DNA from: Romanomermis culicivorax
Lineage: Eukaryota; Nematoda; Enoplea; Mermithida; Mermithidae
Direction of reading: 5' to 3'
Assembly (NCBI GenBank): GCA_963922205.1
Contig: CAWUHX010000417.1
Span: 62,001 to 126,000 of the forward strand
DNA length: 64,000 nt
Below the pieces are notes generated by a model, which was not told the origin of the DNA, ran no database searches, and was given only the letters and a program-made list of their open reading frames with translations. Position numbers and translations under genes: made by a program. Each line of letters begins with the position of its first letter. Within the stretch, counting starts at the first letter, position 1. Positions 17,938 through 54,407 of this stretch are shown here, one piece after another.

Positions 17938-19497
17938 AGTTATTTCAGACAATTGTGTAGAACATTAAATAATTTGTACTACATGATGTTACATATGTAG
18001 TAGATTATTGTCATGTCCATGTTTAGAGACATTTTTTGTATAGTTCAGTCCAACGTCAGAGACGAAATCTTTCTAAATATAAAGTCTACATATCAGTGTC
18101 ATTAGAACCTAATCACGTGAGCCAAATATATCTTTTCTTTATGGAAAGAAAATGTGATGATACGGTTGTGTTGTGAGAACCTACATTTGTCATCATTCAA
18201 TGTGTTTTAGGTCTTGCAGAAAGTCAGATTCTTGATGATACGTACTGATGGATCAAAGCGACTTTCGCTTGACATTTCAGCCATATTTTTACTTTAATTT
18301 GTTTATTTTCTGATGTTCCCTTGGCTCTCATGATATTCGTGTAAATATTTTGTTTTTATTTATTTCCCCTTTACTTTTGCTGTCAGCGATATTCATATTT
18401 TCTACGTATGTTTATCTTGGCTGGTTTTCTTTTTTTCTCTTTTTCACTTGCTTAAATTTTTTGGAAATTTCCAGTTTAGGTTAGCAAAAAACAAGGAACG
18501 GCATTACTTTTTGTGGTATGGATGAGGGTATTGAGAGCCCATTATTAACTGATGATGAGGCTGCATCGTGAAATCCGGTTTTTTCCGTCATAAGTTAAGC
18601 AAATAATCTATAATGAAAAATATTTTACCTTCGTCCATCACAGAACGTGCAAAATACCCCATTTGACATATTTTTTATCCTGTTCAATTGGTTTTTTTAC
18701 GAAAAACTGATGATATGAAAAATATTGTAGTTGACCATGATTCTGCCCAGGTCAGCAAGTATTAGATATTGCGAGATTCACTAATCTGACTTGGATTGAC
18801 CATTGCTTTCAATGGGAAGTTCTTTTAATCGGTGGAAAACGACACTCACGATTTGGGCTCAGCTGTATAAAATCCGTCTTTTTTTGAACGGTAAATGTGA
18901 TCTCAGGGTCATTGAATCATTCATAAAAATTTTTCAAATGCTTTCAATAGTCACATTTTAGAAATTAATCTGGGTGTGCACATTCGCTGCATCTGGCATC
19001 TTTTAACAACTGGAACAAGCTAGAGGAAATCTGGCGGTACTGAAGAGTATCGCCAGATACTCTTTGATTTTAGGACGAATCCCGCAGCAATTCCATTGTT
19101 TCTACAAGATGGAATCATTGCTTTTCTCTCTCTATCGCACAATGGGATCCTTTTTGGATGTAGCTAAAGTTAAGCTGACTTTCATCCATACTTTTTGGGT
19201 CCGATCCAGCAGTCCATCCTAATTATGGCTGTGATGGGGATCGTGCAGAAAAATCTTGAGCGGCGGATGAGAGTAGTTATACCTTCGGCCCGATATTTAA
19301 TTTCCACACTTGCAAAGTTGCAGAAGAAAGTGCATAAAAAATCAGAATGTCCATCGATTTTTTCGCATTTCCCATTTTTCACCTTTCGCATCTTTCACGT
19401 CTTTCATTTTTTCCTACACAAAATCATCACCACAAGGACGCTAAGTACAACTCTCGTCTACGATTTTTCCAATATGGAGACTGTCACTAATGGGGTA

Positions 19498-22233: not shown

Positions 22234-24766
22234 TCATGGAAAGCCATTATCATTCAAATCACAACATTTGGCGAATAATTGATTCGTAATCTCGCATTTG
22301 TGTCCTTGCGGGCATGACAGATCACTGCACGAATCAGCGACAACCATATGGCCTCCGAGTTGTAAAGCGGCCTTTCCATTCTGGCATTTTGGGTCATCTG
22401 CCTCCTTGAACCAATCTAGAATGTTTAATTGATAATTTTTACGCAACTCGATGTTCGAGAATTCGAAAATTGACAGCTCACCTTCAGTAGCAGAATGGCA
22501 GCATTGGCTTGTCATTCCCCCATTTTGACACTCGTAACCTGTCGGACATCCGATAGCCTCACACCAGCGGGGCCCCGATCGGAAACCACTGACCGGCATG
22601 GGAGATGGTGGTGAGTACGCAGCACTGAAGCAAGCCGAACCGTCGACTAAAGATATAAGGAAATTCAACAATAGTCGTCAGGCTAGAACTAGAGTAAACG
22701 GAAATATAGTCGAAGTTACTCCAGAGAAATTTTAAATGAAGATTCGATAAAAAGGAACATATTTAGGCCAAAAGCATTTATAAAAATACAGTGTTTTTCA
22801 AAAACTAAAAAAAATCGTATCTATTGCTACAGTATCTTGATCAATAATCATTCAAAATATTGCTATACGTCAAGCGTTTTTCTGCTTCCTTATAATTGAA
22901 TACGACCAACATTCTAGCATTGCTGGTAAAAATCACAATTATGAATAAAATGTGGGAAAATAATGTCAAATACCATGGAAATCTGCATAAATTACGCCTC
23001 TAGAGTCATCGTCGTTTTTTACAGTAACTGGCGATTCATACAACAACACGAATACAGAGGACTAATGCCTCAGAAGTTCTTTTGACCAGAGAAAGTTGAT
23101 TAGGCTTTCCGGTTCAAAGTCAGAAATATTAACTTTTTCTGCTACCGAGGAGCTATGATGAGCTGTACCTTCATTATACACAACGGACTTTTATAGAGCT
23201 TAAGGTTTTGTCGATTGCATTATTAGTGTTTTTTAGTGTTCTATCTGATACGAGATTAAATATTTATTTATTCAGAGTGAGCCAAAAAAAGGCGACTGGT
23301 ACTGACTTTCATAACTTTGAAACGAGTGAAGCTTTGTTAATGCGTTTGCTGCCGTTGATAGATAAATCATCTGGCATAAAAATTGAAAAGTTTCAGCCAG
23401 ATTGCTTGAATATTGACTGACTAGAATCAAAAATACAAAACGCCAATTTTTTTGCAAATAACGAGCAAAAATTGATAAAAATCAACATGTTTTACAACAG
23501 AAAAAGTAAAATAGATACAATCATAAGCACCATAACAACTACAAGAGAGCCATTTTAGTGTGTCCTACTTTCTGTTTCACCAATAATTTTAATCGTTTTT
23601 CGATCTGGTCAATGACAGAATTGATTTTGCTTTTTCCAATTTCAAAACAAAAGCTCTTGATTTTGGCGAAATTTTTCCCCTGCTGAAAAAAGAAACTGAT
23701 GACTTTAAAGTACGTTTAAATTAAAAATCTGGAACTTTTTTTCACATGGGACAACTTTTACTTTGATTTCATAACTTTTACTTTTTTAAAAATGACCACT
23801 TTTACAAAATTTCTATTTGTACAGAAACCATAAGTGCTGGGAGCATAAATTTTGGCCTATATAACAAAGACAAGCAGGGAATTTTGATGCATTAATCCGC
23901 ATTAAAAAAGTTTCATCCATTCGAAGTGTGTGAAAGTCAGCACCGGTCGCCTTTTTTTGGCACACCCTGTATATTCTCAATAAATTTATTCCTACATCTT
24001 CGATTGTGTGGCATCCAGGTCTTTTGTCACTTGAAAACAGTGCCTTAACCCCGAGGGACAATAGGATTCGGCCTCGCAGTATAATTTGATATAAGATTTC
24101 TCACGTTGGATCACAGCTATTGCAATGTAGTCTTTTGCAAAAATGATTCAACACAGATGGGAACTGCACAGACTGAACAGTTATTGTCCAATTTCTGAAC
24201 CTCAGTTGTCCCATTTCAGCAGAACTTGTGTATCAAGATTGGAGCATTACTTTCAGTCGGTTCATGTTTAGGACGGTCCAGGTCATTGACAAAACATGAA
24301 ATATGCATCACAGTATCAGATAGAGTTTTGTGGAATTCGTTTAGATTTTCCAAACAGCCTACTCTGTACAGCTCCTTGTACAATGGATTGTTGGATCCGT
24401 AGTATTTTTTGGCGTGTGTCCTTTGGAGAGAATAACAGCTTTTTCGAAAAACCTTGTAAAATAAAAATTTGAACTTCACCTGGTCGGCATTTTGTTTGAC
24501 ATGCGTCGTACGATTGGAAATTGTTGTCGTTACCGTCACAACCCAAATACGTGAAAGCCATGCACCGGAATTTTTTCTGATTGAAGTACCATCTTATGGA
24601 ATGTGGACTGCCGCAAGTGTTATTACCTTTGTCTTTGTCGCTCGAACAGTCACCTGAAGAATTTTAATAAAGTAGAACATCGTAGAAGCATAGGCTTGGC
24701 AGTCTTACCTTGAACAGCGACCAGGAAATAGTAAGAAAAAATTGATATGACAAAACGCTCGTACAT
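22234..24766 (-). CDS. Secreted Kunitz plus lustrin-type cysteine-rich protein, gene 1
   Basis: This is a predicted secreted protein of 192 residues. Exons: 24766-24709 (signal peptide, about 20 residues ending LVAVQG), 24653-24480 (Kunitz fold), 22646-22482 (first cysteine-rich module) and 22415-22234 (second module). All internal boundaries are phase 1 and the summed CDS is 579 nt. The Kunitz domain has six cysteines with C3-x7-C4-x12-C5-x3-C6 and the GCDGNDNNF core. However, C1-C2 spacing is 10 (8 in BPTI), C2-C3 is 16 (15 in BPTI), and the residue after C2 (P1) is Gly, so ordinary trypsin inhibition is doubtful. Exons 3-4 carry two modules of the form CPxGYxC...CC, as in the lustrin cysteine-rich family common in nematode Kunitz proteins. 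Unlike its paralogues it ends with extra residues after the final CC (DLNDNGFP). The 1.8-kb intron 2 holds a mariner-like MITE. It is the only family member here on the minus strand. Confidence 0.8.
23271..23985. mobile_element. Mariner-like MITE with long terminal inverted repeats
   Basis: Left end CAGAGTGAGCCAAAAAAAGG and right end (complement) CAGGGTGTGCCAAAAAAAGG. Similarity runs for about 75 bp (CGACxGGTxCTGACTTTCA..TTTTAATGCG). 715 bp with no transposase ORF. It lies within intron 2 of Kunitz gene 1. A solo end of the same family is at 42085-42125 in intron 2 of Kunitz gene 3. Confidence 0.7.
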
Positions 24767-32487: not shown

Positions 32488-34789
32488 ATGTACAAGGCAT
32501 TTGTCATTTCAACCATCGCCTACTATCTGCTGGTCGCCGTTCAAGGTAAGACGGTCAAACTCGTGCTTCCATGAGGCTACAGTTCACTAAAATTCTTTAG
32601 GTGATTGTTCCAGCGATAAAGACAAAGGTACTGAGACGTGCGGGAGTACCCAATCTATAAGATGGTATTTCAACCAGAAAAAATTCCGCTGCATGGCTTT
32701 CACGTATTTGGGTTGCGGTGGCAACGGGAACAACTATATAACGTACGACAAATGTCAGACATGCAGCCCAGGTGAAGCACCATTTTTGATTATCATAATA
32801 GATATGTTTATAGGATGTATAGAATCTGTGTGTTTCTCTATTCTGCACTCAAAAATTGCCATTCTGAACCGCATGATATACTTTTCCCACGGATTCCAAC
32901 CAAAGTCAATCTGATGAAGAGCTGCATATTTTATTTTTTGGGATTCATTGTCAAAATTAACGTACATCTTGGGGCCAAATTTTCTAAAACTTAATTTTGA
33001 ACACTTCAATTCTCATCAGAATTTTGTCTGAATAAAATAGGCATAAGGTTAGGCTAAGGCTTAGACTCAGGCTTAGGCTTAGGCTTGGTCTTAGGCTTAG
33101 GCTCAGGCTTAGGCTTAGGCTTAGGCTTAGGCTTAGGCATAGGCTTGGGCTTAGGCTTAGGCTTAGGCTTAGCCTTAGGCTTAGTCTTAGGCTTAGGCTT
33201 AGGCTTAGGCTTAGGCTTAGGCTTAGGCATAGGCTTGGGCTTAGGCTTAGGCTTAGGCTTAGGCTTAGCCTTAGGCTTAGGCTTAGGCTTAGGCTTAGGC
33301 TTAGGCTTAGGCTTAGGCTTAGGCTTAGGCTTAGGCTTAGGCTTAGGCTTAGGCTTAGGCTTAGGCTTAGGCTTAGGCTTAGGCTTAGGCTTAGGCTTAG
33401 GCTTAGGCTTAGGCTTAGGCCTAGGCTTAGGCTTAGGCTTAGGCTTAGGCTTAGGCTTTGACTTAGGGTTAGGTTTATTCTTAGGCTTAAGCTTAGGCTT
33501 AGGCTTTGGTTTACGCTTAGGCGTAGGCGTATGCTTAAGCTTAGACTTCGGCTCATTAGAGCATTCGAGGTAATGGGTTGTTTAGCACAGAAATCCTTTT
33601 GAACAAAATATTGTTCGAGGTAATGGGAATTTCATGCTTTATTCGACGACGTTCGAAATAGCGGGTCTTAATTGTGTGGTCATGGTGTGTGCTGAGCAAG
33701 CGAAATGGTGGGCAGCCGCACGCACAAGTTTGGCACGCCTACATCCATGAGGAGGAAGGCGGCATGGACGATCACTAATGTAGTATGCCCGGACCCATGC
33801 GTCAGGCGCATCAGAAAAAAACTTTGTAAGGAGCTCGAATTCTCCATCCAATATAGATATGCTACCAACTGAGCTACGTGAATAGCTGGGAAATTTTGGT
33901 TGTAGTCGTAATGAATGATACATGTTTGAGTAGGCCAGGTTAGGATCATATGGATGCACGTTGGAACTGTCCCTCTACTGACCAGTATCAAGGTAGATTT
34001 GACCGTCCAGATCAATGATCGGGATTGTAAGCAATAGATCTACTGGTGTTGAATGTACAGTAATATACAACTAATCCTTAAAGCAACAGATGGCCCATTG
34101 TATGATCATCAGTATTGAAGGCTTCATCGTTGGTGCCGCAGCGGTCTACCTTCGGCTACTGTTTCGGTAGGTTTGACCATCCACGAAGGCTAAAAACGGC
34201 CGAGTTTGGAACAAGTGAATGAAGCATAAGTCCTAACCCTTCACTCAAAACAGTCAAAGCTTGACTCGCTGAGTGTGTTTTCATGGATGGCCAGTTTAAT
34301 GCGAAAAATAGTTTGGATGGAATATTACTTGATTTCTGGTCGAGATTTTTAGAAGCACTATGAGGGAGGTTATTATTGAAACTGCTTTTATTTTATCTTC
34401 AGCCGACGGACCGACTTGCCTCAGTGCTGCATTTTCACCGCCTCCACCAAGGCCAGCTGGTTCAGGCTCGTTGGGGCCACGGTGGTGTAAGACTGTTGGT
34501 TGTCCAACCGGTTACGAATGCCAAAATGGGGGAATGACAAGCCAGTGCTGTAACTCCACCACCGAAAGTAAATCATCGATTTTCGAATGCCAACGCAGTT
34601 ATAGAAAAATTATGGATTGTGTTTTATATAGATTGGTTCAAAGAAGCAGAAAATCCGAAGTGCAAGGATGGGCAGACTGCTCTGCAGCTTGGTGGTCACA
34701 CAATCGTTGCTGATTCGTGTAGCGATTTGTCCTGCCCAGAGGGACACTATTGTGAAACGACCAATCAATTATTTGCCAAATGCTGCTGA
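32488..34789 (+). CDS. Secreted Kunitz plus lustrin-type cysteine-rich protein, gene 2
   Basis: Four exons: 32488-32545 (signal peptide [20 protein letters not shown]), 32601-32771 (Kunitz), 34403-34567 and 34632-34789 (two cysteine-rich modules). All junctions are phase 1 and total 552 nt, 183 residues. Donors and acceptors are canonical (for example TTCTTTAG before exon 2, TTATCTTCAG before exon 3). The Kunitz exon is one codon shorter than in the paralogues: the last cysteine pair is CQTC instead of CxxxC, and P1 is Gly. The change lies at a disulfide position and may weaken folding. The acceptor TATTCAG lies only 8 bases upstream of the ATG with no obvious 5' exon, compatible with spliced-leader addition. 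Intron 2 (1631 bp) contains a 0.5-kb TTAGGC array and a SINE in reverse orientation. The protein is probably extracellular; its target is unknown. Confidence 0.8.
33038..33551 (+). repeat. Interstitial telomere-like (TTAGGC)n array
   Basis: About 510 bp of TTAGGC, nearly perfect in the centre (33250-33450) and degenerate at both ends (TTAGAC, TTAGTC, TTTGAC, GTAGGC variants). This is the nematode telomere hexamer. It lies inside intron 2 of Kunitz gene 2, so it is interstitial here, not a chromosome end. Long six-frame ORFs across it (GLGLGL and SLSLSL) are artefacts. Confidence 0.95.
33690..33890 (-). mobile_element. tRNA-derived SINE, copy 3, reverse orientation
   Basis: Minus strand shows A box TAGCTCAGTTGGTAGC (33877-33861) and B box GGAGAATTCGAGCTCC (33845-33830), then GGGCATACTACATTAGTG and CCGCCTTCCTCCTCATGG, resembling the body of copies 1-2. 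It lies in intron 2 of Kunitz gene 2, directly after the TTAGGC array. Confidence 0.6.
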
Positions 34790-40724: not shown

Positions 40725-43162
40725 ATGTTCAAGCTTTTTGTTTTCTCAACTTTTATCTACTACCTCTTGGTCGCCGTTCATGGTGAGAGCAAGTCAAGCT
40801 GATATGTCCTAAGATTACAATTTGTTTCAATTCTGCAGGAGATTGTTCGATGGACAAAGATAAAGGTAATAGCTCTTGCGGCAGTAAGCCATCGATAAGA
40901 TGGTATTTCAACCAGAAAAAATTCCGCTGCATGGTTTTCACGTATTTGGGTTGTGGCGGCAACGACAACAATTTCGAAAGTTTGGATGCTTGTCAGGGGA
41001 AATGCCATCCAGGTGAAATGCAAATTTTAGGTGTGAAGAAGTGCAGAATTGATTTGCACCAGCATGCTTAATAGTTTCCGATGTTACATAGATCATTAGT
41101 TTGAAACTGGGGCTACTGGAATCAAATCGTTATGTTTTTACACCCATAAGATATCAGAACCAGGATGACTCCAAAAAATGAACACACTGAACAGGTAGCT
41201 CATCGATGGACTATAAAATTCAGGCCTCGTAGTTGCTGATTCGAACCCTACTGATGCAGTTTTTGCTGAAATGTCCAGTGGAGGCGATTGGAACGCGATC
41301 GTCAACCTAGATCTTCTGGCAATAGCTCTAGATCCTCGAGCATTTCCCACACAGATGTTCTTGGCTTAGGCCACCCAAGTACTGCTGAAGATTAGGTAAC
41401 TGTAGCAATTCAGGGAAAGCTGGCAGTGCCTGTAGTAGCCTACTCTGCACACACTGCCACCACTACAACTACAATTTTGTGGCCCGATAGTACAGTTGGT
41501 AAAGCTATGTCTTGTACAGAAGATCGGTGATTCGAGCTCCTCACCAAGCACTATTCTTCTGAGGCACTGTCCATTTGGATTTGGGCATATGACATTGGAG
41601 ACAGTCTAGAGCCTCTTCCTTCAGAAAGGGGAAGGGTAGTTCCGAATGTTCCTCATGCGATCTGCTCTGCTTACACCACCATACGTGCTCCAGAGGAGGT
41701 TTGCTGATCCTCTCAGAATTTTCATTTTTAGGGAATTTTATACCATGAAATGACGAAGTAGATTTGTTCTTAAATAAATGTGGCAAATAAATAAATTAAA
41801 TATATAAAATAAATATGACTTTAAAATATTTCTGCACACTTTGAAGACTTGATCATATAAAAGTTCATTAAAAAATGTAGAAAATTATCAGGAAAAAGGT
41901 GAATTTTTCGTCGGAAATTCAAGAGCACACTTGAAAACCTCTAAAAACAGAGTTTTGAAGCATAATTCCAATGTTCTGCACGTAGGCACACCTCAATCGT
42001 CGCTACACCACCACTCCCGAACCATCCTCGATTAGAGCAGTTGGCAGTGCTCTGCGTTGTATGCAAAAAGTCACCCGCTTGAAAGCTATGAAAGTCAGTA
42101 CCGATCGCCTTTTTTCGGCTCACCCTGTATATTCAAATTGTTTTAACTGCTGTATTTTCTGAGTAAATTCTCCCAAATTATTTCCGAAAATTTCGTGAGT
42201 AATTCGCGGTAAAATAAAATCGCGGCTAAAATCCCCACTAGAAAAATTTCCGAGTACGTAGCCAAAACTTGAATAAAGAGGACATGGCTTTTTAAGGCGA
42301 ATGCACCTGAGTTTTCCATAAGCTCATTAGTTGAAAGAGCTATAGAAAAATTGACTGTTAAGCTATTTTATTGAACTCATGAGGTTTCAGGAACAGTACA
42401 AAAGCAATATTTTTGTTGTGTTGCCCATTGTACAGTTCAATATAAGTTGAAAACACAAATCAGGAGTTCAATGAACAAACAGGAATTTCGACTAATCTAG
42501 AAGTTTATCTCATAATGTGATAATGATTTAAGTGGAATTAGAATGAATGACTTGAGAACCACGGTGATTGTATAAATTTGCAGCACTCCAAGAGCCTGCA
42601 ACATGAATTTTTGGTCTTTAAAACGCAGAAAAATCGCCTTTATTCGACTTCCAAATTTTGTTCCCACATGTACAAAATGATTATTCTGATATTTCTGCAA
42701 TTGGTTTCAGTTCGATGTCCATCTGAGAGGTAATTAATATTGCTGCCACATTCAAAACTGTTTCTATCTCCAGCCGACGGCTTGGCTTGCTTCAGTGCAT
42801 CGTTTTCCCCGCCCGCCCCTATGCCGGCTGGTGCGCTCCGTTTGGGGCCTCATTGGTGTCAAATTATCGGATGTCCGACCGGCTACCAATGCCAAACTGG
42901 CGGTTTGATCAGCCAGTGTTGTAACTCTGCGACTGAAAGTAAGCTATTTCTCTTCGGGTGTTCGAACTCTGGATCTGGAGAACACGAACTTTATTTTTTA
43001 GATTGGTTCAGGGAAGCAGATAACCCGAAATGCAAAAATGGGCAGACTGCTCTACAGCTCGGAGGCCATATAGCAGTCGCGGATTCCTGCAGCGATTTGT
43101 CGTGCCCTCAAGGGCAAACTTGCGAAATTACGAATCAGTTATTCGCCAAATGTTGCAAATAG
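40725..43162 (+). CDS. Secreted Kunitz plus lustrin-type cysteine-rich protein, gene 3
   Basis: Four exons: 40725-40782 (signal peptide MFKLFVFSTFIYYLLVAVHG), 40839-41012 (Kunitz), 42774-42938 and 43002-43162 (two cysteine-rich modules). All junctions are phase 1, 558 nt in total, 185 residues. The Kunitz exon keeps six cysteines, WYFN and GCGGNDNNF; the residue after the second cysteine is Gly. Exon 3 begins after TATCTCCAG with the split codon giving ADG, as in genes 2 and 4. Its WC...GCPTGYQC...QCC spacing matches the paralogues. Intron 3 (63 bp) is open in frame, so a naive ORF reads through it; its position and length match genes 1, 2 and 4, so I splice it out. Intron 2 (1761 bp) holds two tRNA-derived SINE-like units and one mariner-like terminal repeat. 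Acceptor TTATTCAG lies 17 bases upstream of the ATG. Confidence 0.82.
41190..41450 (+). mobile_element. Second tRNA-like SINE head, adjacent to copy 2
   Basis: GGTAGCTCATCGATGG (A-box-like, 41195) and TGATTCGAACCCT (B box, 41237-41249) at tRNA-like spacing, followed by a body different from copy 2. Possibly another SINE family. Confidence 0.45.
41480..41720 (+). mobile_element. tRNA-derived SINE, copy 2
   Basis: Head GGCCCGATAGTACAGTTGG (A box, 41480-41500) and GGTGATTCGAGCTCC (B box, 41526-41540). The body has TTTGGGCATATGA and GCCTCTTCCTTCAGAAAGG, matching copy 1. It lies in intron 2 of Kunitz gene 3. Confidence 0.65.
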
Positions 43163-44180
43163 CTTTCGACTAGTTTTCGATATACATGATCTTTAGTTTA
43201 AGTATAGTGTAGTATTTTATATGCTGTAGTTTATAGTCATATACGTTGAAAGTGCACATTGCGCTCTTTATCTAGTTAATTAAAAATCAAAAATAATAGC
43301 GACAATCAGATTTACCTGTGCATGGATATTCTGCACGGCAAAACATGGAATAAAACTCGAAATTCTGAATTTTACCGGTTTTTGGTTGCATCTAAAAGAG
43401 TAACAAAAGGGTGAAAATTCATAAGATTTTAAGAGAAAAATGTACACGCTAAAAAACGGTGTTAACCCGATAAAAAAATTCGTTATTGAACTACATCCTT
43501 CGTGCAACATTCAAAAATCCTTACGATAAATCGACGTTAGGAGGCGTCTATGGAAGGAAGAGTACATGAAGCGTTTGATCTCATAAAGATATAGGTTTGG
43601 CTGCAATCATTTTTGTATCTTTTGTCGTTGTTTAGATCAGTGTATGGAAACTTTCAATTGATTCGGTCATTTATGCAAATTTTCTGTGTCAGGCAGTTCG
43701 GCGCCGGCCATTTCGGAGCCGGCCATTCAAGCGGCAAACCGCACTTTTTTGTTTAGTTTTTTCTTCCGTTTTCTTTACCGTCTTTCTTTTTTCATCTTAT
43801 TCCATCTATCGTTTTGTGTGTTTTGCTTATGTTTTTGTTTGTATTTTCATGCTTTTCTCTATTATCTTTTTCCGCTAATAATTTAGTATGAATTGATGCC
43901 ATCGCCGTTTGCTAGTTTGCCACTGTTTCCGTCTGAATGAATTATATTCCTTCATTTTATACCAGTTAAACAAAACACAGCAAGGTTGTTCGAAAATGTC
44001 GAAAAAATGGAAAAATTTCTATAATTCGTTCGTAATAAGAAAAAATCATTAAAATACTATGAAAACGACAAATTTAGAGCCTACAATTGACTACAAAAAA
44101 CAACCTGTGAAGATTTGTGAAGTAGTGCAGCAAAACTGTCGAGCTACATTTAGACGATACGAATATCCTATGAAAAATAC
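43163..44180. other. Intergenic between Kunitz gene 3 and the retrotransposon
   Basis: 3' flank of gene 3, then a half foldback element (43686-43880), then unique AT-rich sequence up to the ATAC target site. Confidence 0.6.
43686..43880. repeat. Half foldback element: TTCGGCGCCGGCCA units plus pyrimidine core
   Basis: Units GGCAGTTCGGCGCCGGCCA, TTTCGGAGCCGGCCA and TTCAAGCGGC at 43690-43732 are followed by a core (43738-43880) with TTTTCTTCCGTTTTC, TTTTGTGTGTTTTGCTTATG and TTTTTGTTTGTATTTTCATG, closely like the inner arm of the element at 35072. No opposite arm found. Related TTCGGTGCC units are at 3340-3400. Confidence 0.5.
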
Positions 44181-45085
44181 TGTAACGACCAGATTTCTGT
44201 GAGGTACTTTACTTGGACCAATCGGTCGATACGGCGGGGTAAATAACGGGACGGGGGCGCGGGCGTACGATTACAAATAAAACAAGGGGGATCGACGGTC
44301 GCTTGAACGTCGACAATAAACGCGCTTCGAATTAAAATACGGACGGGGGCCTCGGTTTAAGTGCTTTCGAATAGTCGGCCGCTTGCAAATGTATAAAAAG
44401 ACGGGGGCGAGCGCGGAGGTCAAAACGGAGAAACCACAAAAATAAGAATCAGAATAATAATAAAAATCACGCTTTGCTTCTTCTTTTATACGGCGATTTT
44501 GGCCACTCCCTGGGCGCTGCGGGAGGTCGAGCTTCTGTCCACCTTCTTCCGCCAATCGTCGTTTCCGGCTACGCTTCTTATGCTTTCTTAGTTACGCCTC
44601 TCTAATGCTTTTCTGGTACCGTATGCTTTCTGTGCTTGACTTGCTTTCTACGGTGGGCTTGGCCACACCTTTGTGCTTCTGTGCATGCTTCCTGTATCGG
44701 TTTCTCTGTATACACATGGTTTGTGGGGCCGCCGCTACCGTTACACTTGAGACTACTGTACGGCGGGGCTTCTACATATTTTACTGTGTGCAGGTGTTGT
44801 TTACGATTTTTACTGGGGATTACGGTAGCTGTGGAATGTGTAGTTTAGTGTGGGTTCTAGGGGAACAGCTGCCGTTTGTGCAAATTAATTAGGGCATCTT
44901 AATTGGGCTACCGGGGTGTGAACGGATCAAAATAAAGTACTTCACGTAATTTTGTAGGAATGTTTGGGTGTGAATCCCAGACATCCTTGAGACGATAAAA
45001 TGTGAAAATAAAATAATATCTAATAAATGTCTATTACATACAGTATGCTACATATTTACAGTACTGCTTTAGCAGGTAAGTTACA
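44181..45085 (-). repeat. 3' LTR of the Gypsy-type element
   Basis: Begins TGTAACGACC and ends TTTAGCAGGTAAGTTACA on the plus strand. It is the same length as the 5' LTR. Substitutions noted by eye: one in the GAGCGCGG stretch, one near CGCTTCTTA, one at CTACATAT and one at the fourth-last region (GGTAAG against GGTACG). Several plus-strand ORFs of 60-95 codons inside it occur in both LTRs and are treated as incidental. Confidence 0.95.
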
Positions 45086-45098
45086 TTTCCCTCCTTCC
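45086..45098 (-). promoter_or_regulatory. Polypurine tract of the retrotransposon
   Basis: On the minus strand GGAAGGAGGGAAA directly abuts the TGTAAC start of the 3' LTR. This is the expected primer for plus-strand DNA synthesis. It lies 18 bases past the polyprotein stop codon. Confidence 0.85.
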
Positions 45099-45116: not shown

Positions 45117-48100
45117 TCAAGACTTTCGAGGTTGAGGAGGGGTGGGGGTAGATGCGATAGGTGCTTTCCGAGGGTAGAAAGGGGTCGTCTCGTTTACATG
45201 CACCGTAAATGTAATATTCTTATGGGGGTGTTTGAGTGTAACGTTGGGGTACATGAAATTTGTAACTGTATAGGGCCCGTTCTGGCGAGGGAGGAATTTG
45301 GGAGTCAGCCCTTGTTTACACGAATGATTTTTGTAGAGAATAAGATCACCTGCCTTGTAATGTATGTTCTGAGCATGTTTTTTATACTGACGGGTATAGT
45401 GGGCTTGGGCTTTTTGCAAACTTTTCTGCACGGTTGAGAGTGCTTCTGTGAAATGCGATTTTACACGAAGGGCGTAATCGTCTACGTCGACCATGTAGGA
45501 CGTGGGGAAAAAATTTAAAGCTGCATCTGACGGCAGATTAGCTTGCCTACCGTGGAGTAATTCAAATGGGGGATATGAAGTGCTATCATTTTTATGAATG
45601 TTGATCGAAAAAACGGCGTACGGGAGATAAGTATCCCAATCAGTGTGATTTGAATTGATGTACATGCGGATACGGGTGGCTAGGGTTTGGTTGCAACGCT
45701 CAACTTCTCCATTGGCAATGGGATGATATGGGGTAGTGTGAATTTTCTGAGTATTGCATAAACTGGTGATCCGTGAGAAGAGATCCGATACAAAATCGGT
45801 GCCACGATCACAATGGATGATTTTTGGGGACCCATGACGACAAACAATTTTGGTTACGAATAGCTTGGCAATAGTGGCTGCAGTGATGTCAGGGGTCGGG
45901 AATGCCTCTACATACTTTGTGAAATAATCGATGAAAACGATAATAAATCGGTTGCCGTCTTCTGTGAGGGGTAACGGTCCCATGCAATCAACACCGACTC
46001 TATCAAATGGGCCAGTCGGCTGAATTGGTACCAAGTTTGCATGCACTTTGTGTCTAAGAGCTTTCTGTGTCTGGCATGGGTGGCAAGTTTTGCAGTAACG
46101 TTTGATATCACGGCTCATTTGGGGCCAAAAATATTTCTGTCTGAGCAAGTGTAAAGTTTTCCTGGCCGCAAAATGACCTGTGAATTTGCTGTCATGATGT
46201 GAGGCGATGAGATGCTGGACTTGCGACTTGGGAATGTATAGTTTTGCCTGTTTGTCGACTATACGGAAGAGAATGTTTTGATGCACTGCGAATTTGATAA
46301 GGGTAAGGGGGTGTTTTTGGGCGAATTTTGCTAAGATGCTTTTGACAGTTGGGTCAGTGCGTTGGAGTTCGGCGAAGTTTTTCTGTTGCTCTTCTTGTTC
46401 AGTTGCTTCGGCCTCAAGAACAGAATTGATGGTGGATATTTCGGGACGGGTTTCTAATTGCTCAATATCAAAGGATTGCTTTGCTGTCTGTGAGGGGAAT
46501 CGAGAAACTGCATCTGCGTTGCGGTCAGCAGTGCCTTTCTTAGGGCGAATGTCGAGCTGAATACCGGAGAGGGCTAATCCCCAACGGGCAATGCGAGGGG
46601 ACGGGTTTTCCTTCTGTAAGACTGCTTGAACTGCTGTGTGGTCAGTGTGTACGATAACATGTTGCTGGAAAAGATAGGGGCGGAAATACTTGACAAATTC
46701 GACTACTGCAAGGGTTTCCAGCTCAGTGATCGGGTAGTTGCGTTCTGCGGGTTTCAATGTGCGGCTCCCAAAAGCAATGGGGCGATCCTGACCTTCACTA
46801 TCTAGCTGACTGAGAATGGCGCCGATTCCGAGTTTTGATGCGTCAGTTTGCAGAATAAATGGTTTTGTGAAGTCGGGGTGCTGCAGTATTGGGGCATGAA
46901 TGAGTAATTCTTTTAGCTTAGTGAATGCATTTTGCTGTTCAGGGCCCCAGGAAAATTCTGAGTTCTTTTTGAGTAGCGATGTGAGTGGGCTAGAGACTTG
47001 AGAGCAATTTGGGATGAATCTGCGATAATATGAGGGTAGACCAAGGAATGACTTAACTTCTTTTGAGCTTTTGGGTGTGGGTATGTCATAGATGGCCTGT
47101 ACCTTATGGGGATCTGGTGAAATGCCTTGCTGAGAAATGACGTGGCCTAAGTATTGGACTTGGGGCTGGCAGAATTTGCATTTTTGTATGTTTAGCTTAA
47201 GGCCTGCTTGTGAGAATCGGGCAAGAATAGTGTCTAAACGTTCCAGCATTTGGGCATGGGAGTCTGCGAATACCAAAACATCGTCGAGATACACAAGGCA
47301 TGTGTTCCATTGCAGACCCAAGAGGATAACATCCATTAACCTTTGGAATGTGGCTGGGGCATTGGTGAGTCCAAAGGGGAGGTAATTGAACTGAAACTGG
47401 CCGGCTGAGCAATTAAAGGCCGTTTTTTCTCTGTCTGCTTGTGCTATGGGAATGGAATAGTATGCATTGGATTGGTCAAGGGAGGTGAAATATTCCATTC
47501 CACGGAGGGTGTCTAGAATTTCGTCTATCCAGGGCAAGGGGTAGGTATCTTTTTTTGTGACTTTGTTGGGGCCTCGAAAATCAATGCATAAACGATGGCC
47601 TCCGTCTTTTTTGGGAACTAAAACTGTGTTGGTACACCATGGGGAATTGCTTTGGCTTATGACACCTGCTGCTGCGAGTTGCTCAACTTCTGCTTGTATG
47701 ATTTGTTTTTCTTTTGGGGAAGTCCGATAAAGTTGTCTGCGTACGGGTTGGGAGCCATTGGTGTCAATTGTATGTGAAACGAGGGTGGTTCTGCCTACGT
47801 CCATTTTGGATTTAGCATATAATGTAGGGTACTTCGATAGGGCACGTAGGAGTTGCATTTTCTCGGTTTCTGTGAGGTCACTGGAGGTCAAATTGACGTT
47901 TTCTTTTAACCATGTGAATGTATCAAAACGGTTGGGCTGGTTTTGCGTTGAAGGGGTTAGATTAGCGGGAGCATTTTGTTTTGGGATGTAACATGAGACT
48001 GTACCAATGCATGTTCCAGGATAAAGAATTTGGGCTGTTTCTTGTGTGTTTAAGACGGATATGCGTATGCGACTGTTTTGATTTTCAGAGATGCAAGCTG

Positions 48101-51100
48101 CGAAATGGACTTTAGAGTTCTGTTTGGGTTTCGGGGTGAATTCAAGCTGTTTGACCTGTAAGTACGATTTGGGCAAGGGGACAGTAAATTCGGTTACTGT
48201 ACGGGGTGGTAATTCTAATTTCTCGTCTAGATAAGTTCCACCACGAGTTGAAAGAGGGCTATATTCTAGGCCATCACAGGGTAGTATAACATTGCCAAAT
48301 TTGACCTGTGATTTTTGATTGTTGATAGTGTATTCCGAAAATCGACTGAGAAAGTTTTTGCCTAGAAGGCTGTCTGCTGTGCAATCTTTTTGGACATGGA
48401 CCATGATTGTTTCCTGGATTGTTTGGGCTGTTACTGTGACAAAAGTGGTTCCTACAAAGTGAATGGGAAGATTATTTGCTGCTTTTGCTTGGACTAGCGG
48501 GGGTTTCATGTCTAACTGTAAAAGTTGAGCGATTCGGGAATCAATGAGTGAGTAAACTGCACCAGTGTCAATCATGCCTTTTGTCATTAATTTGCCGTTA
48601 AGTGTGATTGGAATATGAGGAGTATGTTTCTCAGGTACGTTTTGGGGTGGCTTATTTGATGCAGATTGCTGAATTTGATTAATGAGTTCGATTGCAGGAG
48701 TTCGGGGGGTATCGATATCGACAAGGACGTATTTCTGCTGTGTTTGCGCCCCACGACGATTAGCTAATTCTAAAAGAGCATGGCCGAATGATGGGGGAAT
48801 AGTCTCATGTAAATGTCTGTTGTTTGATGGTATTTCGTATGCATGTTCATTTGTGGCATGATGCTTTGGAGAGGGGAAATATTTTCGAAGAATGAGGAAC
48901 GAATAAAAGACGCCTGCGATAACTACAGTAATAACGGCGAGATTGATAATGATTTGCAGGGGCCCTTTGAGTAAATTGTTTAATCCATCTGTGAGACTTT
49001 GGGTGGTACCGGTTATTACATGTTCTATGCCTTGACCAGCACCAGAGAGTGTATTTCCGAGTGCTTGACCAGTGTTTGAGATCGTGTTGTAAACTGTATC
49101 GGAGTTGAGAGACATTTGGGCGGTGTAATTGACGAGTTTTTGGACAACCTTTTCGAGTGCGTGAGTTTTGTAAATGTATTGTTTCAAAAAGAGTAAGTTG
49201 GTTGAAATGGTTGCAAGTTGATCATGAAAAATGGCAGGTGTATTAAAATGGAAAAGGGAGAAATTTTGGTTCCAGACGATTTCTAAAGGTAAATTTGTGA
49301 CATGCGGGGATCCTGTTTCACTTACCCATGTATTATTCTGTTTGTAAAGGGCTACATGCATGTGATGGCAATCAACTGTTTGTGAAAAAGGGGTCAAATC
49401 GTTGCCTCCTGGATTTGAAAACATGAGTTCAGTTCCTACGAGAATGGGCAAAAGTTTGTAGCATGTTTGGTTGATTTTATGGTTGTAAAAGACTTTGGAT
49501 GCGTCTACCTGCTTGCAGGGCCAGACTGTGAGGGCTTCTCCTGTAAATTCTGCTATGATGTCCATTCCCTGTAGGAATGCACGGGCTCCAAGGGTTGCAT
49601 CAAGACGTAAAATTTGCCATACGAGATCAAGGTGACGCTGCGCCTGTCTGCATAATTCACTCCATACATTTTTGAAATTTTGAATTTCGAATTCCTGTAT
49701 TTTGTCTGCTAGATAGTTCAGTTTTGCATTGATGGGTTCAAAATCATCAAAATCGTATAGTGTAGTATGAGTTTCGTTGGTTTTTGGGGTTAAAAATGCG
49801 TTACGATGTGGGGTGCTTTTGTCTAATTGTACAATAATGCCTTGTTCGGTTAGAATGCTGTCTTGGATTTCTGGGCAATTGGGGTTTGAAAAGAGTGTGT
49901 TTTTAACCGAGAATGCACCTTGTAGCTCTTCTATTATCATGTGGGTTGGCATGAGTTTTATGGGATGTGTATTTTTGGATTCGAAGGGGCATAAGTTTTC
50001 AAATGCTGTTTCATTCCAGATAATGGATCCGTCGGCTGTGACACAATGACCTGATGTCGGTTTGCATGACCCTAGGTCGCCTAATGTACCTGTCATAGAT
50101 TTTCCATTCCAAGATGCTATTTGTCCTATTTCTATGATGACGTTAGTGACTGAGGTACAATGGTCTGTACAACACCATGTGTATTCTACGCTTAGGGAGT
50201 TATTTGTTGACCAAAATCCTGGTTGGGTTTCGTATAATTTTTGACCGTTGTGTTCTTTGTCTATAACGATTGCCTTACAAACATGTGGGGTTAGATTTTG
50301 CATTTCGGTTTGGTCGAAGACAATACCTTTTGATCCAAAAAATCCTGTATTAGTACAAATTTTGCGTTTGCGAACACTGCATTTGTATGCGTCTGTAATG
50401 TGGGGCTTAGTGGAGGGGATATAGATTTTTCGGAATGTTTGTACGGGTTTGTCTACTGTGGAAGGGGGCATGCATGATACAAGTTTTGGTATGCTGACTG
50501 AGTGACCGCTCAATGAAGTTCCACACATCTGAAATTGGGCACTACACGATGTGGGGATTATTATACATAAAAATATACAATACAATGGCCAATGTAGTGG
50601 TTTAGTGGAGGCGGCGGGGTACTGTATATTTTCGTTGTGGCCAGTTTGGTGTTGGGGCTTTTGGTGTTGTCGTTTTGCAATTTTGCGCTGGGGGGGTGGC
50701 CCGTTTGTAATCTGAACGTTCTGTAAAACTTTAGAAGTTGAGTTATGGGATGGGGTTTGGACTTGCTTACTTGTGGGGGTCGGTAGCAATGTTTGGCGGG
50801 GGCGAAATTGGTAGGGTTCAGGGGTCAGGCCATGGAGAAGGGACAACAAGTTGCGGCCTGTTTTCGACGGGGTTTCGGGGGCGGTGGGTGGCGTAGTGTC
50901 TTGCTTTCGGGGGATCTTGTAGCCTACGGGGATGGTGGGCGGCGATTTTTCGATTTTTGCGGCTTCAGGCGTGGGGAGTGGTGACATGGCGCACCAATCG
51001 GGTACGTCCAGATCAAGGACGTATTCGTCACTACGGCGGTGGGTGTTGGGCATGATAGTTCCTAAAGTAGTCTGAGGGCCGTTAGTTATGGCGGGTAATT

Positions 51101-52346
51101 TTGAGTAAAATGCGGGGTCGTCAATGTCCATGAGGGGTTGGGGTTGCCTGTACTCAATGCAATTTTGAATATTATGACTCTGCTGATTTGGGCAATACCT
51201 GCTTGTATGACCTCTCTGCTTGCATATGAAACATTGAAAATTGGAGTAGGGTTTTGAAAGGCAGTTATCTGATCTATGTCCTGTTTGGGAACAGTGGATG
51301 CATCGGCTTTTACAATCACGTGTGCTGTGATTATTACGGAAACAGATTTCACATGATTTTCGGGTGCCTACTGATTTACAGTTACGAGCTACGTGTCCAA
51401 TTTGTCCACACTGGAAGCATGTGGGTTGCCTGGGGGTGGTATTGTTCCTGTAAGCATTATTCCTGCTGAAAGTATTGTTACTGAAATTGTTGTAGCTACT
51501 TTGTTGTGGGGGTTGAGGTTTTTGTTTGATCTGCAACTGTAAATCTTTTACTTGTTGTTCTAACTGATGCAAAAGATCCTGTTGGTCTGTATTTTTGGTT
51601 AGGGAAAAGATGGGTTCGGGTTTTGGGGGTATGAAGGGAAGGACGTTAGATTTTAACTCATTTCTAAGAATTTGCTGTTCAATGTAAGCTGCTTCGTCTG
51701 ACATTTCTTTTAGAGTTGCGAATCTTCTATACTTAATTGCTTCCCTGATTTCGTTTTGCATGCCTTCTACAAAGAGGGGTTTTATGATCATTTCTCGTGC
51801 ATCTGTGTTAAAGTTAGGGTAGGCGAGGGTTGCGAGATGTTCTAGATCAAATAAGAATTCCGTTACTGTTTCTGATCGCTTTTGTTTTCTTTCGCGTAAG
51901 AATTGTTGATGTAGCTCATTATCTCTATTGTTTGGGAAAAATGTCTGTAATGCGACTTTATACTGCTCGTATGTGTGGGGAGGGTTTTCGGAATTTGCTA
52001 AACTTTTGAATTTTGCTAACGCGGCTCCTCCTAAATGAATTTCTAAACATGCCAACTTTAACTGTACGTCTGTATCTTTCATGCCTTGGAGTGCCATGAA
52101 TTGTTCTAATCTTTTGTTCCATTCACCAAAATGTTGGGTCACGCCGCCCGTGAATACTGTAGGTTTCGCGTAAAAATTGTTTGCCATGTTATTACGAATG
52201 TTTGCTGTTCTTAGATCGTCTATTAGGGTAGGGTTTACTGTATTCTGATTCAATTGTGTGCGTAGGGTACCAAAATGTTCTGAAAATAAATCGTTTATCT
52301 GTTCTCTAACGATTTCTCCTAAATGATCTTGCGTTTGGTGGGTCAT
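45117..52346 (-). CDS. Retrotransposon polyprotein: Gag, envelope-like glycoprotein, protease, RT, RNase H, integrase
   Basis: One uninterrupted ORF of 2409 residues. Gag: capsid-like region about 50-230, then four CCHC knuckles (C310, C332, C349 and C372, each CX2CX4HX4C). Envelope-like part: hydrophobic signal about 587-603, cysteine-rich ectodomain about 604-1129 with many N-glycosylation sequons, and a membrane helix about 1131-1154. Protease: DTGA at 1260-1263. RT: D1624, LPFGLTNAPATF near 1656, YLDD at 1686-1689. RNase H: D1835, E1875 or E1877, D1902. Integrase: zinc finger H2051/H2058/C2088/C2091, then D2120, D2180 and E2216 (DD35E), and GPY at 2357-2359. Envelope between gag and pol is not the usual order (env normally follows pol). 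The topology is still consistent: signal plus stop-transfer would leave both Gag and Pol in the cytosol. The glycoprotein's origin is undetermined; a chuvirus- or rhabdovirus-like source is only a guess. ATG 52346 is the first ATG after the predicted transcription start. Confidence 0.93.
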   Translation of the reverse strand: MTHQTQDHLGEIVREQINDLFSEHFGTLRTQLNQNTVNPTLIDDLRTANIRNNMANNFYAKPTVFTGGVTQHFGEWNKRLEQFMALQGMKDTDVQLKLACLEIHLGGAALAKFKSLANSENPPHTYEQYKVALQTFFPNNRDNELHQQFLRERKQKRSETVTEFLFDLEHLATLAYPNFNTDAREMIIKPLFVEGMQNEIREAIKYRRFATLKEMSDEAAYIEQQILRNELKSNVLPFIPPKPEPIFSLTKNTDQQDLLHQLEQQVKDLQLQIKQKPQPPQQSSYNNFSNNTFSRNNAYRNNTTPRQPTCFQCGQIGHVARNCKSVGTRKSCEICFRNNHSTRDCKSRCIHCSQTGHRSDNCLSKPYSNFQCFICKQRGHTSRYCPNQQSHNIQNCIEYRQPQPLMDIDDPAFYSKLPAITNGPQTTLGTIMPNTHRRSDEYVLDLDVPDWCAMSPLPTPEAAKIEKSPPTIPVGYKIPRKQDTTPPTAPETPSKTGRNLLSLLHGLTPEPYQFRPRQTLLPTPTSKQVQTPSHNSTSKVLQNVQITNGPPPQRKIAKRQHQKPQHQTGHNENIQYPAASTKPLHWPLYCIFLCIIIPTSCSAQFQMCGTSLSGHSVSIPKLVSCMPPSTVDKPVQTFRKIYIPSTKPHITDAYKCSVRKRKICTNTGFFGSKGIVFDQTEMQNLTPHVCKAIVIDKEHNGQKLYETQPGFWSTNNSLSVEYTWCCTDHCTSVTNVIIEIGQIASWNGKSMTGTLGDLGSCKPTSGHCVTADGSIIWNETAFENLCPFESKNTHPIKLMPTHMIIEELQGAFSVKNTLFSNPNCPEIQDSILTEQGIIVQLDKSTPHRNAFLTPKTNETHTTLYDFDDFEPINAKLNYLADKIQEFEIQNFKNVWSELCRQAQRHLDLVWQILRLDATLGARAFLQGMDIIAEFTGEALTVWPCKQVDASKVFYNHKINQTCYKLLPILVGTELMFSNPGGNDLTPFSQTVDCHHMHVALYKQNNTWVSETGSPHVTNLPLEIVWNQNFSLFHFNTPAIFHDQLATISTNLLFLKQYIYKTHALEKVVQKLVNYTAQMSLNSDTVYNTISNTGQALGNTLSGAGQGIEHVITGTTQSLTDGLNNLLKGPLQIIINLAVITVVIAGVFYSFLILRKYFPSPKHHATNEHAYEIPSNNRHLHETIPPSFGHALLELANRRGAQTQQKYVLVDIDTPRTPAIELINQIQQSASNKPPQNVPEKHTPHIPITLNGKLMTKGMIDTGAVYSLIDSRIAQLLQLDMKPPLVQAKAANNLPIHFVGTTFVTVTAQTIQETIMVHVQKDCTADSLLGKNFLSRFSEYTINNQKSQVKFGNVILPCDGLEYSPLSTRGGTYLDEKLELPPRTVTEFTVPLPKSYLQVKQLEFTPKPKQNSKVHFAACISENQNSRIRISVLNTQETAQILYPGTCIGTVSCYIPKQNAPANLTPSTQNQPNRFDTFTWLKENVNLTSSDLTETEKMQLLRALSKYPTLYAKSKMDVGRTTLVSHTIDTNGSQPVRRQLYRTSPKEKQIIQAEVEQLAAAGVISQSNSPWCTNTVLVPKKDGGHRLCIDFRGPNKVTKKDTYPLPWIDEILDTLRGMEYFTSLDQSNAYYSIPIAQADREKTAFNCSAGQFQFNYLPFGLTNAPATFQRLMDVILLGLQWNTCLVYLDDVLVFADSHAQMLERLDTILARFSQAGLKLNIQKCKFCQPQVQYLGHVISQQGISPDPHKVQAIYDIPTPKSSKEVKSFLGLPSYYRRFIPNCSQVSSPLTSLLKKNSEFSWGPEQQNAFTKLKELLIHAPILQHPDFTKPFILQTDASKLGIGAILSQLDSEGQDRPIAFGSRTLKPAERNYPITELETLAVVEFVKYFRPYLFQQHVIVHTDHTAVQAVLQKENPSPRIARWGLALSGIQLDIRPKKGTADRNADAVSRFPSQTAKQSFDIEQLETRPEISTINSVLEAEATEQEEQQKNFAELQRTDPTVKSILAKFAQKHPLTLIKFAVHQNILFRIVDKQAKLYIPKSQVQHLIASHHDSKFTGHFAARKTLHLLRQKYFWPQMSRDIKRYCKTCHPCQTQKALRHKVHANLVPIQPTGPFDRVGVDCMGPLPLTEDGNRFIIVFIDYFTKYVEAFPTPDITAATIAKLFVTKIVCRHGSPKIIHCDRGTDFVSDLFSRITSLCNTQKIHTTPYHPIANGEVERCNQTLATRIRMYINSNHTDWDTYLPYAVFSINIHKNDSTSYPPFELLHGRQANLPSDAALNFFPTSYMVDVDDYALRVKSHFTEALSTVQKSLQKAQAHYTRQYKKHAQNIHYKAGDLILYKNHSCKQGLTPKFLPRQNGPYTVTNFMYPNVTLKHPHKNITFTVHVNETTPFYPRKAPIASTPTPPQPRKS

Positions 52347-52566
52347 TCTTGGTTTGCGTTGGGATTTCTGCTTAAATGCTTCAATTTTTGCTTCACGCTG
52401 TATTCGTTTAAATGTATCGCTTAATGTTTCGTTGGAGGGGATTTCCAGTTTGCTTTCTACGAATACTGTCTTACTGTAGGAAATGATTACTACTGTATTA
52501 TCTAATGCTTCTAAACGCCCGGATAAGAGTACACCTAACTGGGGGCAGGGAGTTCCACTGGTTAAC

Positions 52567-52584
52567 GTAATGGTACGGTCACCA
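52567..52584 (-). promoter_or_regulatory. Putative tRNA primer-binding site of the retrotransposon
   Basis: Five bases after the 5' LTR the minus strand reads TGGTGACCGTACC. TGG complements the tRNA CCA tail, and the following bases would pair with an acceptor strand ending ACGGTCACCA, which resembles some arginine tRNAs. The tRNA identity is a guess; position and the TGG start are what is seen. Confidence 0.6.
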
Positions 52585-52589
52585 AAATA

Positions 52590-53494
52590 TGTAACGACCA
52601 GATTTCTGTGAGGTACTTTACTTGGACCAATCGGTCGATACGGCGGGGTAAATAACGGGACGGGGGCGCGGGCGTACGATTACAAATAAAACAAGGGGGA
52701 TCGACGGTCGCTTGAACGTCGACAATAAACGCGCTTCGAATTAAAATACGGACGGGGGCCTCGGTTTAAGTGCTTTCGAATAGTCGGCCGCTTGCAAATG
52801 TATAAAAAGACGGGGGCGAGTGCGGAGGTCAAAACGGAGAAACCACAAAAATAAGAATCAGAATAATAATAAAAATCACGCTTTGCTTCTTCTTTTATAC
52901 GGCGATTTTGGCCACTCCCTGGGCGCTGCGGGAGGTCGAGCTTCTGTCCACCTTCTTCCGCCAATCGTCGTTTCCGGCTACGCTTTTTATGCTTTCTTAG
53001 TTACGCCTCTCTAATGCTTTTCTGGTACCGTATGCTTTCTGTGCTTGACTTGCTTTCTACGGTGGGCTTGGCCACACCTTTGTGCTTCTGTGCATGCTTC
53101 CTGTATCGGTTTCTCTGTATACACATGGTTTGTGGGGCCGCCGCTACCGTTACACTTGAGACTACTGTACGGCGGGGCTTCTACGTATTTTACTGTGTGC
53201 AGGTGTTGTTTACGATTTTTACTGGGGATTACGGTAGCTGTGGAATGTGTAGTTTAGTGTGGGTTCTAGGGGAACAGCTGCCGTTTGTGCAAATTAATTA
53301 GGGCATCTTAATTGGGCTACCGGGGTGTGAACGGATCAAAATAAAGTACTTCACGTAATTTTGTAGGAATGTTTGGGTGTGAATCCCAGACATCCTTGAG
53401 ACGATAAAATGTGAAAATAAAATAATATCTAATAAATGTCTATTACATACAGTATGCTACATATTTACAGTACTGCTTTAGCAGGTACGTTACA
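52590..53494 (-). repeat. 5' LTR of the Gypsy-type element
   Basis: Direct repeat of 44181-45085, lying upstream of the polyprotein in transcription direction. It contains a TATA box on the minus strand and therefore presumably the promoter. A 94-codon minus-strand frame (52964-52680) ends at a single TAA in the same frame as gag, but it starts upstream of the predicted transcription start. Confidence 0.95.
52893..52899 (-). promoter_or_regulatory. TATA box in the 5' LTR
   Basis: Minus-strand CCGTATAAAAGAAG. A start 25-30 bases downstream (about 52865) would give a leader of roughly 520 bases. That leader contains no ATG in any frame (no CAT on the plus strand) until the gag start at 52346. 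Confidence 0.6.
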
Positions 53495-54407
53495 ATACGA
53501 TTCAGACTGATTCTAGCATGTTCAATTTCAGAATTCGAAGTTTTGGAAACCACCCCATTAGAATACTCAGGGTAGTACAGATAACTCACATTATCTTGTT
53601 TTCCATATTTTTTGTTACAAATCGTAGGTCACAGAGTTTACGATTTACTATAGTATGCAAAGTTTCGTGTAAAAGAATGCACTGGTGCCAATGAATAATG
53701 TAGCACGACGGCTAAAAGTTCTTTCTGCCATTTAGTAGCGAAATTTTCATAATTAATCATTTGTGACATCAATTTCCACAACGGATTTCCGACGTGGCAT
53801 ATGAATTATTTGTGGAAAAATCACAACTTTATGTTGCCTTCTCACCAAGTTCTGTGATCTATATGATAATTTTCCGGTATGCTTATTCGAGTGGATGTTT
53901 CTGTTGTTGTTCACAGATTGTCGTAGAATAGTTTGAAATCCATTTTTCAAAATTCGAATTCTATTCATTTGTCAGAGTTTAGTTTCTTTGGTAAATACCG
54001 AGCACTGCTTTGAAATGACGATGAAAGTGCAGTCCATTACAGATACGCTTGCTTTTATCGGTTTCTGCATCGTTGCATCCGAAAACTGATTTCATTTGTA
54101 TAATTTTTTCGTTCAGATGTGCTAACGCAGATTGTGTGAAAACCGACATGCGATATTTTCAATTTCCAGTAGAATGTGCAACAAATTCAGATCTTGCAGA
54201 ATTTCCTATCAGTTAGACATAATTGAAGTACTGTGAGTAAATTTCTGCATCTCAAACTGAACATTCTAGCAGAATGTTGATAAGTCACCCTGGGGATGAA
54301 GACCAATGATCCAATTCTGAAAAACATGAGAATACATTGGATACGAAAATCAAATAACTTGTGCAATAGCCTTTATTTCCCCCACTCATAATTTGATTGT
54401 TTGTCGA

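Follow-up and report, generated by a model that had tools for sequence, protein, structure and literature searches.

In the familiar envelope-bearing long terminal repeat (LTR) elements, which serve as models for the origin of retroviruses, the env gene lies 3' of pol, and in the errantiviruses it forms the third open reading frame (ORF), again 3' of pol. One published account, as excerpted, has an envelope-like protein follow the polyprotein in Roo, Tas and Cer-7 and describes Anakin of mosquitoes as a BEL/Pao element with a chuvirus glycoprotein (PMC7642597); in the excerpted part of another account the errantivirus envelope is likely of baculovirus origin and Troyka elements are given as having no envelope (PMC12440569). 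Jingchuvirales glycoproteins also occur as endogenous viral elements (EVEs), and the cited part of a 2023 survey includes nematodes (Event 3, two EVEs), places Gypsy fragments often near such EVEs in Hymenoptera and other insects, and reports one EVE within a complete but unclassified element from Bemisia tabaci (PMC10084718). The window analysed here, a 64,000-nucleotide stretch of contig CAWUHX010000417.1 of the mermithid nematode Romanomermis culicivorax, which parasitises mosquitoes, contains an LTR element in which Gag, Env and Pol are fused in a single ORF (45117..52346, minus strand, as are all features of the element unless stated; 2409 codons from ATG). The order is Gag, Env, protease (PR), reverse transcriptase (RT), RNase H (RH) and integrase (IN), and this fused gag-env-pol layout is given with high confidence. 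A preliminary description of the DNA had read a single frame in gag-env-pol order with no stop, which was borne out by both the ORF call and the order of Pfam matches. It had also known of no described element with such a layout; none was found in the open-licence literature searched by titles and abstract openings, which does not prove absence.

Anakin resembles the window element in being an LTR element with a chuvirus-type glycoprotein, but it belongs to the Pao family of BEL/Pao, whereas the window element has a Ty3/Gypsy-type Pol and its Env is fused between Gag and protease. Errantiviruses share a Ty3/Gypsy-type Pol with a captured envelope; theirs is likely from a baculovirus and lies 3', whereas the one in the window is Monjiviricetes-type and internal. 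The Jingchuvirales EVEs bring the same glycoprotein type into genomes, but the nematode cases are flanked by simple repeats and, in the cited part of the survey, its authors see no clear Gypsy or Copia capture (PMC10084718). The window element is probably a Ty3/Gypsy-type LTR element of R. culicivorax that is young and has moved recently, and in whose ancestor a Monjiviricetes glycoprotein was gained between Gag and protease; a splice switch, weighed further below, is the less sure part of this reading.

The element is bounded by two LTRs of 905 bp that differ by four mismatches (5' LTR, 52590..53494, TGTAAC...GTTACA; 3' LTR, 44181..45085) and by an unstranded target-site duplication GTAT (53495..53498 on the 5' side, 44177..44180 on the 3' side). 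A leader of 243 nt without ATG (52347..52589) starts with a tentative primer-binding site, TATTTTGGTGACCG, and a polypurine tract, GGAAGGAGGGAAA (45086..45098), adjoins the 3' LTR. Since only 31 bp separate the stop codon from the 3' LTR, there is no room for a gene 3' of pol. Rfam and transfer RNA scans of the window gave no matches.

The Pfam search of the ORF, run on four pieces, identified the Gag capsid (Retrotrans_gag PF03732, residues 103-176, 51819..52040, E 3.6e-05), four CCHC zinc knuckles (residues 310-385, starting at 310, 332, 349 and 372; 51192..51419; zf-CCHC 2.6e-08), the aspartic protease (gag-asp_proteas 7.3e-09, residues 1246-1335, 48342..48611, with DTGA at 1260), the reverse transcriptase (RVT_1, residues 1577-1737, 47136..47618, E 6.5e-36), the RNase H (RT_RNaseH, residues 1802-1927, 46566..46943, E 1.1e-37) and the integrase (residues 2038-2209, 45720..46235; Integrase_H2C2 1.4e-21, rve core 4.3e-09). 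The order PR-RT-RH-IN between LTRs with a short target-site duplication is that of Ty3/Gypsy but is not decisive alone, as the BEL/Pao order is identical. Peptidase_A17 is usual in BEL/Pao; no Peptidase_A17 match was found here, and the gag-asp protease and RT_RNaseH matches do not indicate a BEL/Pao polymerase like that of Anakin. The GPY of a GPY/F motif is present at the integrase end (residue 2357, by eye and sequence check), where it is a Ty3/Gypsy (Metaviridae) hallmark according to the cited excerpt (PMC12440569). Among 120 of the 1738 RT matches the relatives were mostly unnamed, with one named K02A2.6-like, and scans with PHROGs and NCBIfam gave nothing beyond transposase, protease and RT-type matches.

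Only two hydrophobic segments exceed the hydropathy threshold (19 residues, 1.5), at 584-608 and 1124-1157, both between Gag and protease. They correspond to a predicted internal signal sequence (residues 587-605, 50532..50588) and a membrane helix (residues 1131-1154, 48885..48956), which enclose the Env ectodomain (residues 606-1130, 48957..50531) with eight N-glycosylation sequons spanning 684-1073. Residues 857-1037 (49236..49778) match the viral fusion glycoprotein family PF24664 (Monjiviricetes_fusion) with an E value of 4.5e-19 and 68.3 bits against a curated cut-off of 27, and a weak match to herpesvirus glycoprotein B was seen in the Env region (E 0.01). Env would accordingly be, by family, a Monjiviricetes (chuvirus-type) class III glycoprotein. 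The preliminary description was right in placing the knuckles at 310-385, DTGA at 1260, a signal sequence at 587-603 and one helix at 1131-1154, and its sequon-studded, env-type ectodomain was recovered by the profile search. The Env piece gave no match to the baculovirus F-type Pfam family at E up to 1, so that neither this nor the 31 bp after the stop codon is as in an errantivirus. The segment following the helix, a cytosolic tail plus spacer with PPSFGHALLELAN at residue 1184 (48627..48884), is under constraint equal to that of the protease and is recognisable in family B and partly in family C, described below.

A PDB sequence search returned no Env relative, and protein searches for Env relatives returned just one R. 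culicivorax protein, the best match, and one protein binned as Gammaproteobacteria. The latter, P0006 (GY820_06790), is 39% identical to Env and comes from a 1383-bp contig that is perhaps misbinned animal DNA; it hints at an Env of this type beyond R. culicivorax. Viral contigs scanned with Env, together with scans using the RT relatives, confirmed no relative.

The genome searched comprised 359,112,060 bases in 595 contigs. An env DNA probe gave 992 first-look candidates and a gag probe 1134; the 40 scored for each were 99-100% and 98-100% identical, respectively, and a 31-base marker from the Gag-Env linker matched the genome 638 times (at most two mismatches). Five of eight env-probe loci of 3.6 kb, including that of the window, were open throughout (1199-1200 codons), the broken ones carrying one stop (L004), four stops (L007) or a frameshift (L005). 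Half of 20 further copies, taken over 4.9 kb from inside Gag through RT, were open across 1633 codons. The layout is therefore not a product of chance or misassembly. Perfect 4-bp target-site duplications flank eight of these ten other open copies (not L026 and L028), and the two LTRs are 99.2-100% identical in nine, with 96.7% over a partial match in L028. Copies were also found about 8.4 kb apart (G000:C180 at about 404, 8769 and 17134; G000:C2 at 2956129 and 2964530), the spacing expected of head-to-tail elements with a common LTR.

Selection was assessed by the ratio of nonsynonymous to synonymous polymorphism (pN/pS) in the window element and the ten copies, a set selected for being open (n=11) in which pairwise counts are not independent. 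Values were 0.07 for gag residues 151-390 and 0.17 for 391-480, and 0.09 for env residues 781-930 and 0.08 for 931-1130. The membrane helix gave 0.16, the tail 0.05, the protease 0.07, the PR-RT spacer 0.10 and RT 0.03; in the linker between Gag and Env (481-586) pN/pS was 0.33. Among the eight loci taken without selection for openness, env 801-1130 gave 0.13. The contrast between the low coding values and the leader, with 0.72, is large. Env is under purifying selection in the gag-env-pol frame, and this codon-level selection clearly shows the Env segment to be translated. Residues 587-780, the probe region, were excluded from the selection argument; there the few changes gave pN/pS of 0.56 (eight loci) and 0.12 (11 open copies). 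The synonymous diversity of this region (50007-50588) was 0.03 in the 11 copies versus about 0.12-0.14 elsewhere in Env, a low value that is at least partly due to probe ascertainment, while recombination between copies may account for the remainder. Additional coding in the leader, which in the window is open through 81 codons, was considered and rejected: a one-base length difference breaks this frame in five of the ten other copies (L009, L011, L012, L013 and L023), and because of these breaks and the pN/pS of 0.72 the leader is taken as non-coding.

The order first read from this one copy recurs elsewhere in the genome. The PF24664 profile gave 2320 first-look candidates, all 68 scored being above the cut-off, and open frames at the scored loci reach 2578 codons. 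Env is followed by PR-RT on the same strand in each of the 30 loci fetched from these 68. By their longest Env match to the window element the 30 loci fall into families A (13 loci, 87-97%), B (11, 53-60%), C (three, 42-43%) and D (three, 36-38%), so at least four families have env and then pol, the Env of the other families being 36-60% identical to that of the window. Gag matches of the family A type lie within 1.5 kb upstream in 15 of the 30 loci. The single representatives read further upstream, L057 for B, L065 for C and L056 for D, each have a Gag frame in phase with CCHC and capsid-type matches, the capsid-type Pfam match being above the cut-off in B, below it in C and weak in D (0.012). 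In L056 a stop interrupts the frame between Gag and Env; the other two D copies lack this stop and are broken elsewhere. All three representatives carry both hydrophobic segments, D with one weaker extra. A tree of 126 RT sequences (the window, two of B, one of C, two of D and 120 of the 1738 relatives) was made, RT phylogeny having been one of the checks named in the preliminary description; it placed A-D in a single clade of ten tips, including four metagenome proteins, with support of 0.908. The layout is common to several families of the R. culicivorax genome and is not that of one odd copy. The alternative of a rearranged or chimeric copy, or of a chance read-through without function, fits the many broken copies (10 of 20) but is contradicted by the 638 marker matches, the intact frames, the codon-level selection and the several families with the same order, and is considered extremely improbable. 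The selected fusion glycoprotein within the polyprotein of several R. culicivorax families represents another route from transposon to potential retrovirus.

The layout poses a protein-topology problem that is directly testable. Translation of full-length RNA would begin at the Gag ATG and produce Gag-Env-Pol. Its internal signal sequence would insert into the endoplasmic reticulum (ER) with Gag and the N-terminus on the cytosolic side, the ectodomain would pass into the lumen, and the helix at 1131-1154 would stop transfer and leave PR-RT-RH-IN in the cytosol. Signal peptidase and the element's own protease could then free Gag, Env and Pol. A single-ORF element also faces the problem of making excess Gag. 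A less sure step in the proposed mechanism is that the ratio of products is governed by a facultative intron of 50 nt lying shortly before the signal sequence: spliced RNA would shift frame, reach a stop about 38-39 codons on and yield Gag alone, and intron-retaining RNA would give Gag-Env-Pol and also be the genome that is reverse-transcribed. The mini-intron would offer a solution to the Gag-excess problem of a kind already demonstrated for barley BARE1, in which, according to the cited excerpt, one ORF contains a facultative intron of 104 nt whose removal shifts the frame and leaves Gag only (PMC3735527). The likeness lies in the frame-shifting short intron; BARE1 differs in being a plant Copia element without envelope, and its splicing was seen on complementary DNA, as excerpted, whereas for the window element we infer it. 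Cer1 of C. elegans, as far as the cited excerpt goes, is likewise a nematode LTR element with no stop between gag and pol and with genomic RNA that keeps usable splice sites, but there splicing yields the export factor CERV (PMC10309623).

The putative intron (50721..50770, GT-AG) has the form CAA/GTAAGC...TTTTACAG/A, with slashes at the predicted splice sites. It is followed by a segment (50602..50720) that is linker in the main frame and that in the spliced (+2) frame would encode 38 codons to a TAA before the signal sequence, the tail of such a Gag ending in RRLH. As in BARE1, then, the sequence holds a short GT-AG segment whose loss shifts the frame and ends Gag. With splice-site weights from a nematode consensus, this pair is the sole GT-AG pair of 40-90 nt above threshold in the window ORF. 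Conservation was examined in 40 aligned family A sequences (the window, L002-L028 and 12 A-type PF24664 loci, the thirteenth, L067, being excluded for an internal deletion): the length of 50 nt, the GT and the CAG were kept in all 40 and GTAAG in 39, and the spliced frame stays open for 36-38 codons in 30. In gag and env, segregating sites were in excess at third positions whichever of the minor-allele cut-offs was applied. Over the 135 nt that precede the donor this excess was significant only with singletons removed. Within the 50 nt the order of sites was reversed (11/6/2, p 0.04), which no longer reached significance once singletons were dropped, and the 117 nt following the acceptor had sites spread evenly across codon positions. 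Family B has a pair of 62 nt in the same place, TAG/GTAAAA...TTTTTCAG, with GT and CAG in 10 of 11 loci, and 56-nt pairs lie just upstream of the signal sequence in the divergent L049 and in family C. Removal of the pair in B, L049 or C also reaches a stop ahead of the signal sequence. All pair lengths are 2 mod 3, and comparable pairs elsewhere amounted to one in about 28 kb scanned.

A number of observations speak against this proposal or limit the wider reading. Codon shuffles of the ORF average 0.51 such pairs, with a maximum of three, so one pair is unremarkable by itself. The threshold of the cross-family scan of about 28 kb was fixed after the scores had been seen. The common phase means little: some phases are ruled out wherever the main frame is open, and six of six weaker pairs in C have the same phase. 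Family D has no pair at the higher threshold; lowering it brings up a 97-nt pair, of a different length class, in two of three copies and none in the third; its Gag and protease are also weak Pfam matches (0.012 and 0.007). The tail of the spliced frame is shortened or lost in 10 of the 40 A copies and is three codons long in C, and its coding signal is weak (pN/pS 0.48 versus 0.67 for the main frame; segregating sites not significant). With a median R. culicivorax intron of 405 bp in the cited excerpt (PMC3890508), 50 nt is unusually short. Genome-wide, spliced-junction copies of A or B were not found at up to two mismatches (the B pattern was searched without an unspliced control), but their absence fits an unspliced template and no splicing alike, and therefore neither proves nor excludes splicing. 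As to topology, the signal sequence was called by hydropathy only, and an AlphaFold model of Env built from three sequences was too poor for a fold search (predicted local distance difference test score 33.5). We infer splicing, ER topology and cleavage from the sequence.

The same data can be read as no splicing at all, with all product being Gag-Env-Pol, Gag excess arising by proteolysis, unequal turnover or signal-sequence stalling, and the linker being under relaxed constraint, its GT-AG pair due to chance. The raised pN/pS of the linker (0.33), the frequent pairs in shuffled ORFs, the shortness relative to host introns, the missing spliced copies of A and B and the post hoc threshold all agree with this. 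It has to account for the matching position of the pairs in A, B, L049 and C, and for donor, acceptor and exact length being kept in 40 of 40 A copies despite variable flanks; we give it rather less than an even chance. The 50-nt facultative intron as a splice switch is, from these sequence features, a tentative proposal that falls somewhat short of even. The same guarded view applies to the fuller proposal of a clade whose Env and Pol would come solely from one membrane-spanning Gag-Env-Pol, at a fixed 1:1 ratio, with the choice between this protein and bulk Gag set by whether a tiny frame-shifting intron is retained, and with the unspliced RNA also serving as the packaged genome; this is possible, a little less than evenly so. 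If it is true, a single splice decision would determine the surplus of Gag together with how much Env and enzyme is supplied, and a real mini-intron would be a nematode case of splicing-controlled Gag excess beside barley BARE1.

Splicing could also work differently, by removal of Env as a long in-frame intron to give Gag-Pol, Env then coming from unspliced or another RNA, which would be nearer to retroviral practice. The donor at 50770 and an AG at 48770 would indeed define an intron of 2001 nt, in frame, giving Env-free Gag-Pol, and this AG is kept in all 11 open copies of family A. However, it sits in TTAG within a protein stretch that is conserved in B and partly in C, which explains the AG, so its conservation is no proof of splicing, and by chance a third of all pairs are in frame. 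A separate Env RNA would have no obvious start because there is no in-frame Met between 454 and the signal sequence and no ATG in the leader. Such an arrangement is unlikely in place of the fused product, and Env-free Gag-Pol may conceivably be made alongside it.

Elsewhere in the 64-kb window, two near-identical ORFs on the minus strand (4262-4879 and 17326-17952, 205 and 208 amino acids) represent a local duplication and presumably resemble the start of a DEG/ENaC-type channel. At 33038-33553 a TAGGCT hexamer is repeated about 86 times, a low-complexity stretch with both strands open. The pattern CPTGYxCQ recurs in three cysteine-rich ORFs that are related to one another (22234-22671, minus strand; 34360-34713 and 42740-43162, plus strand) and are perhaps members of a dispersed family of secreted proteins.
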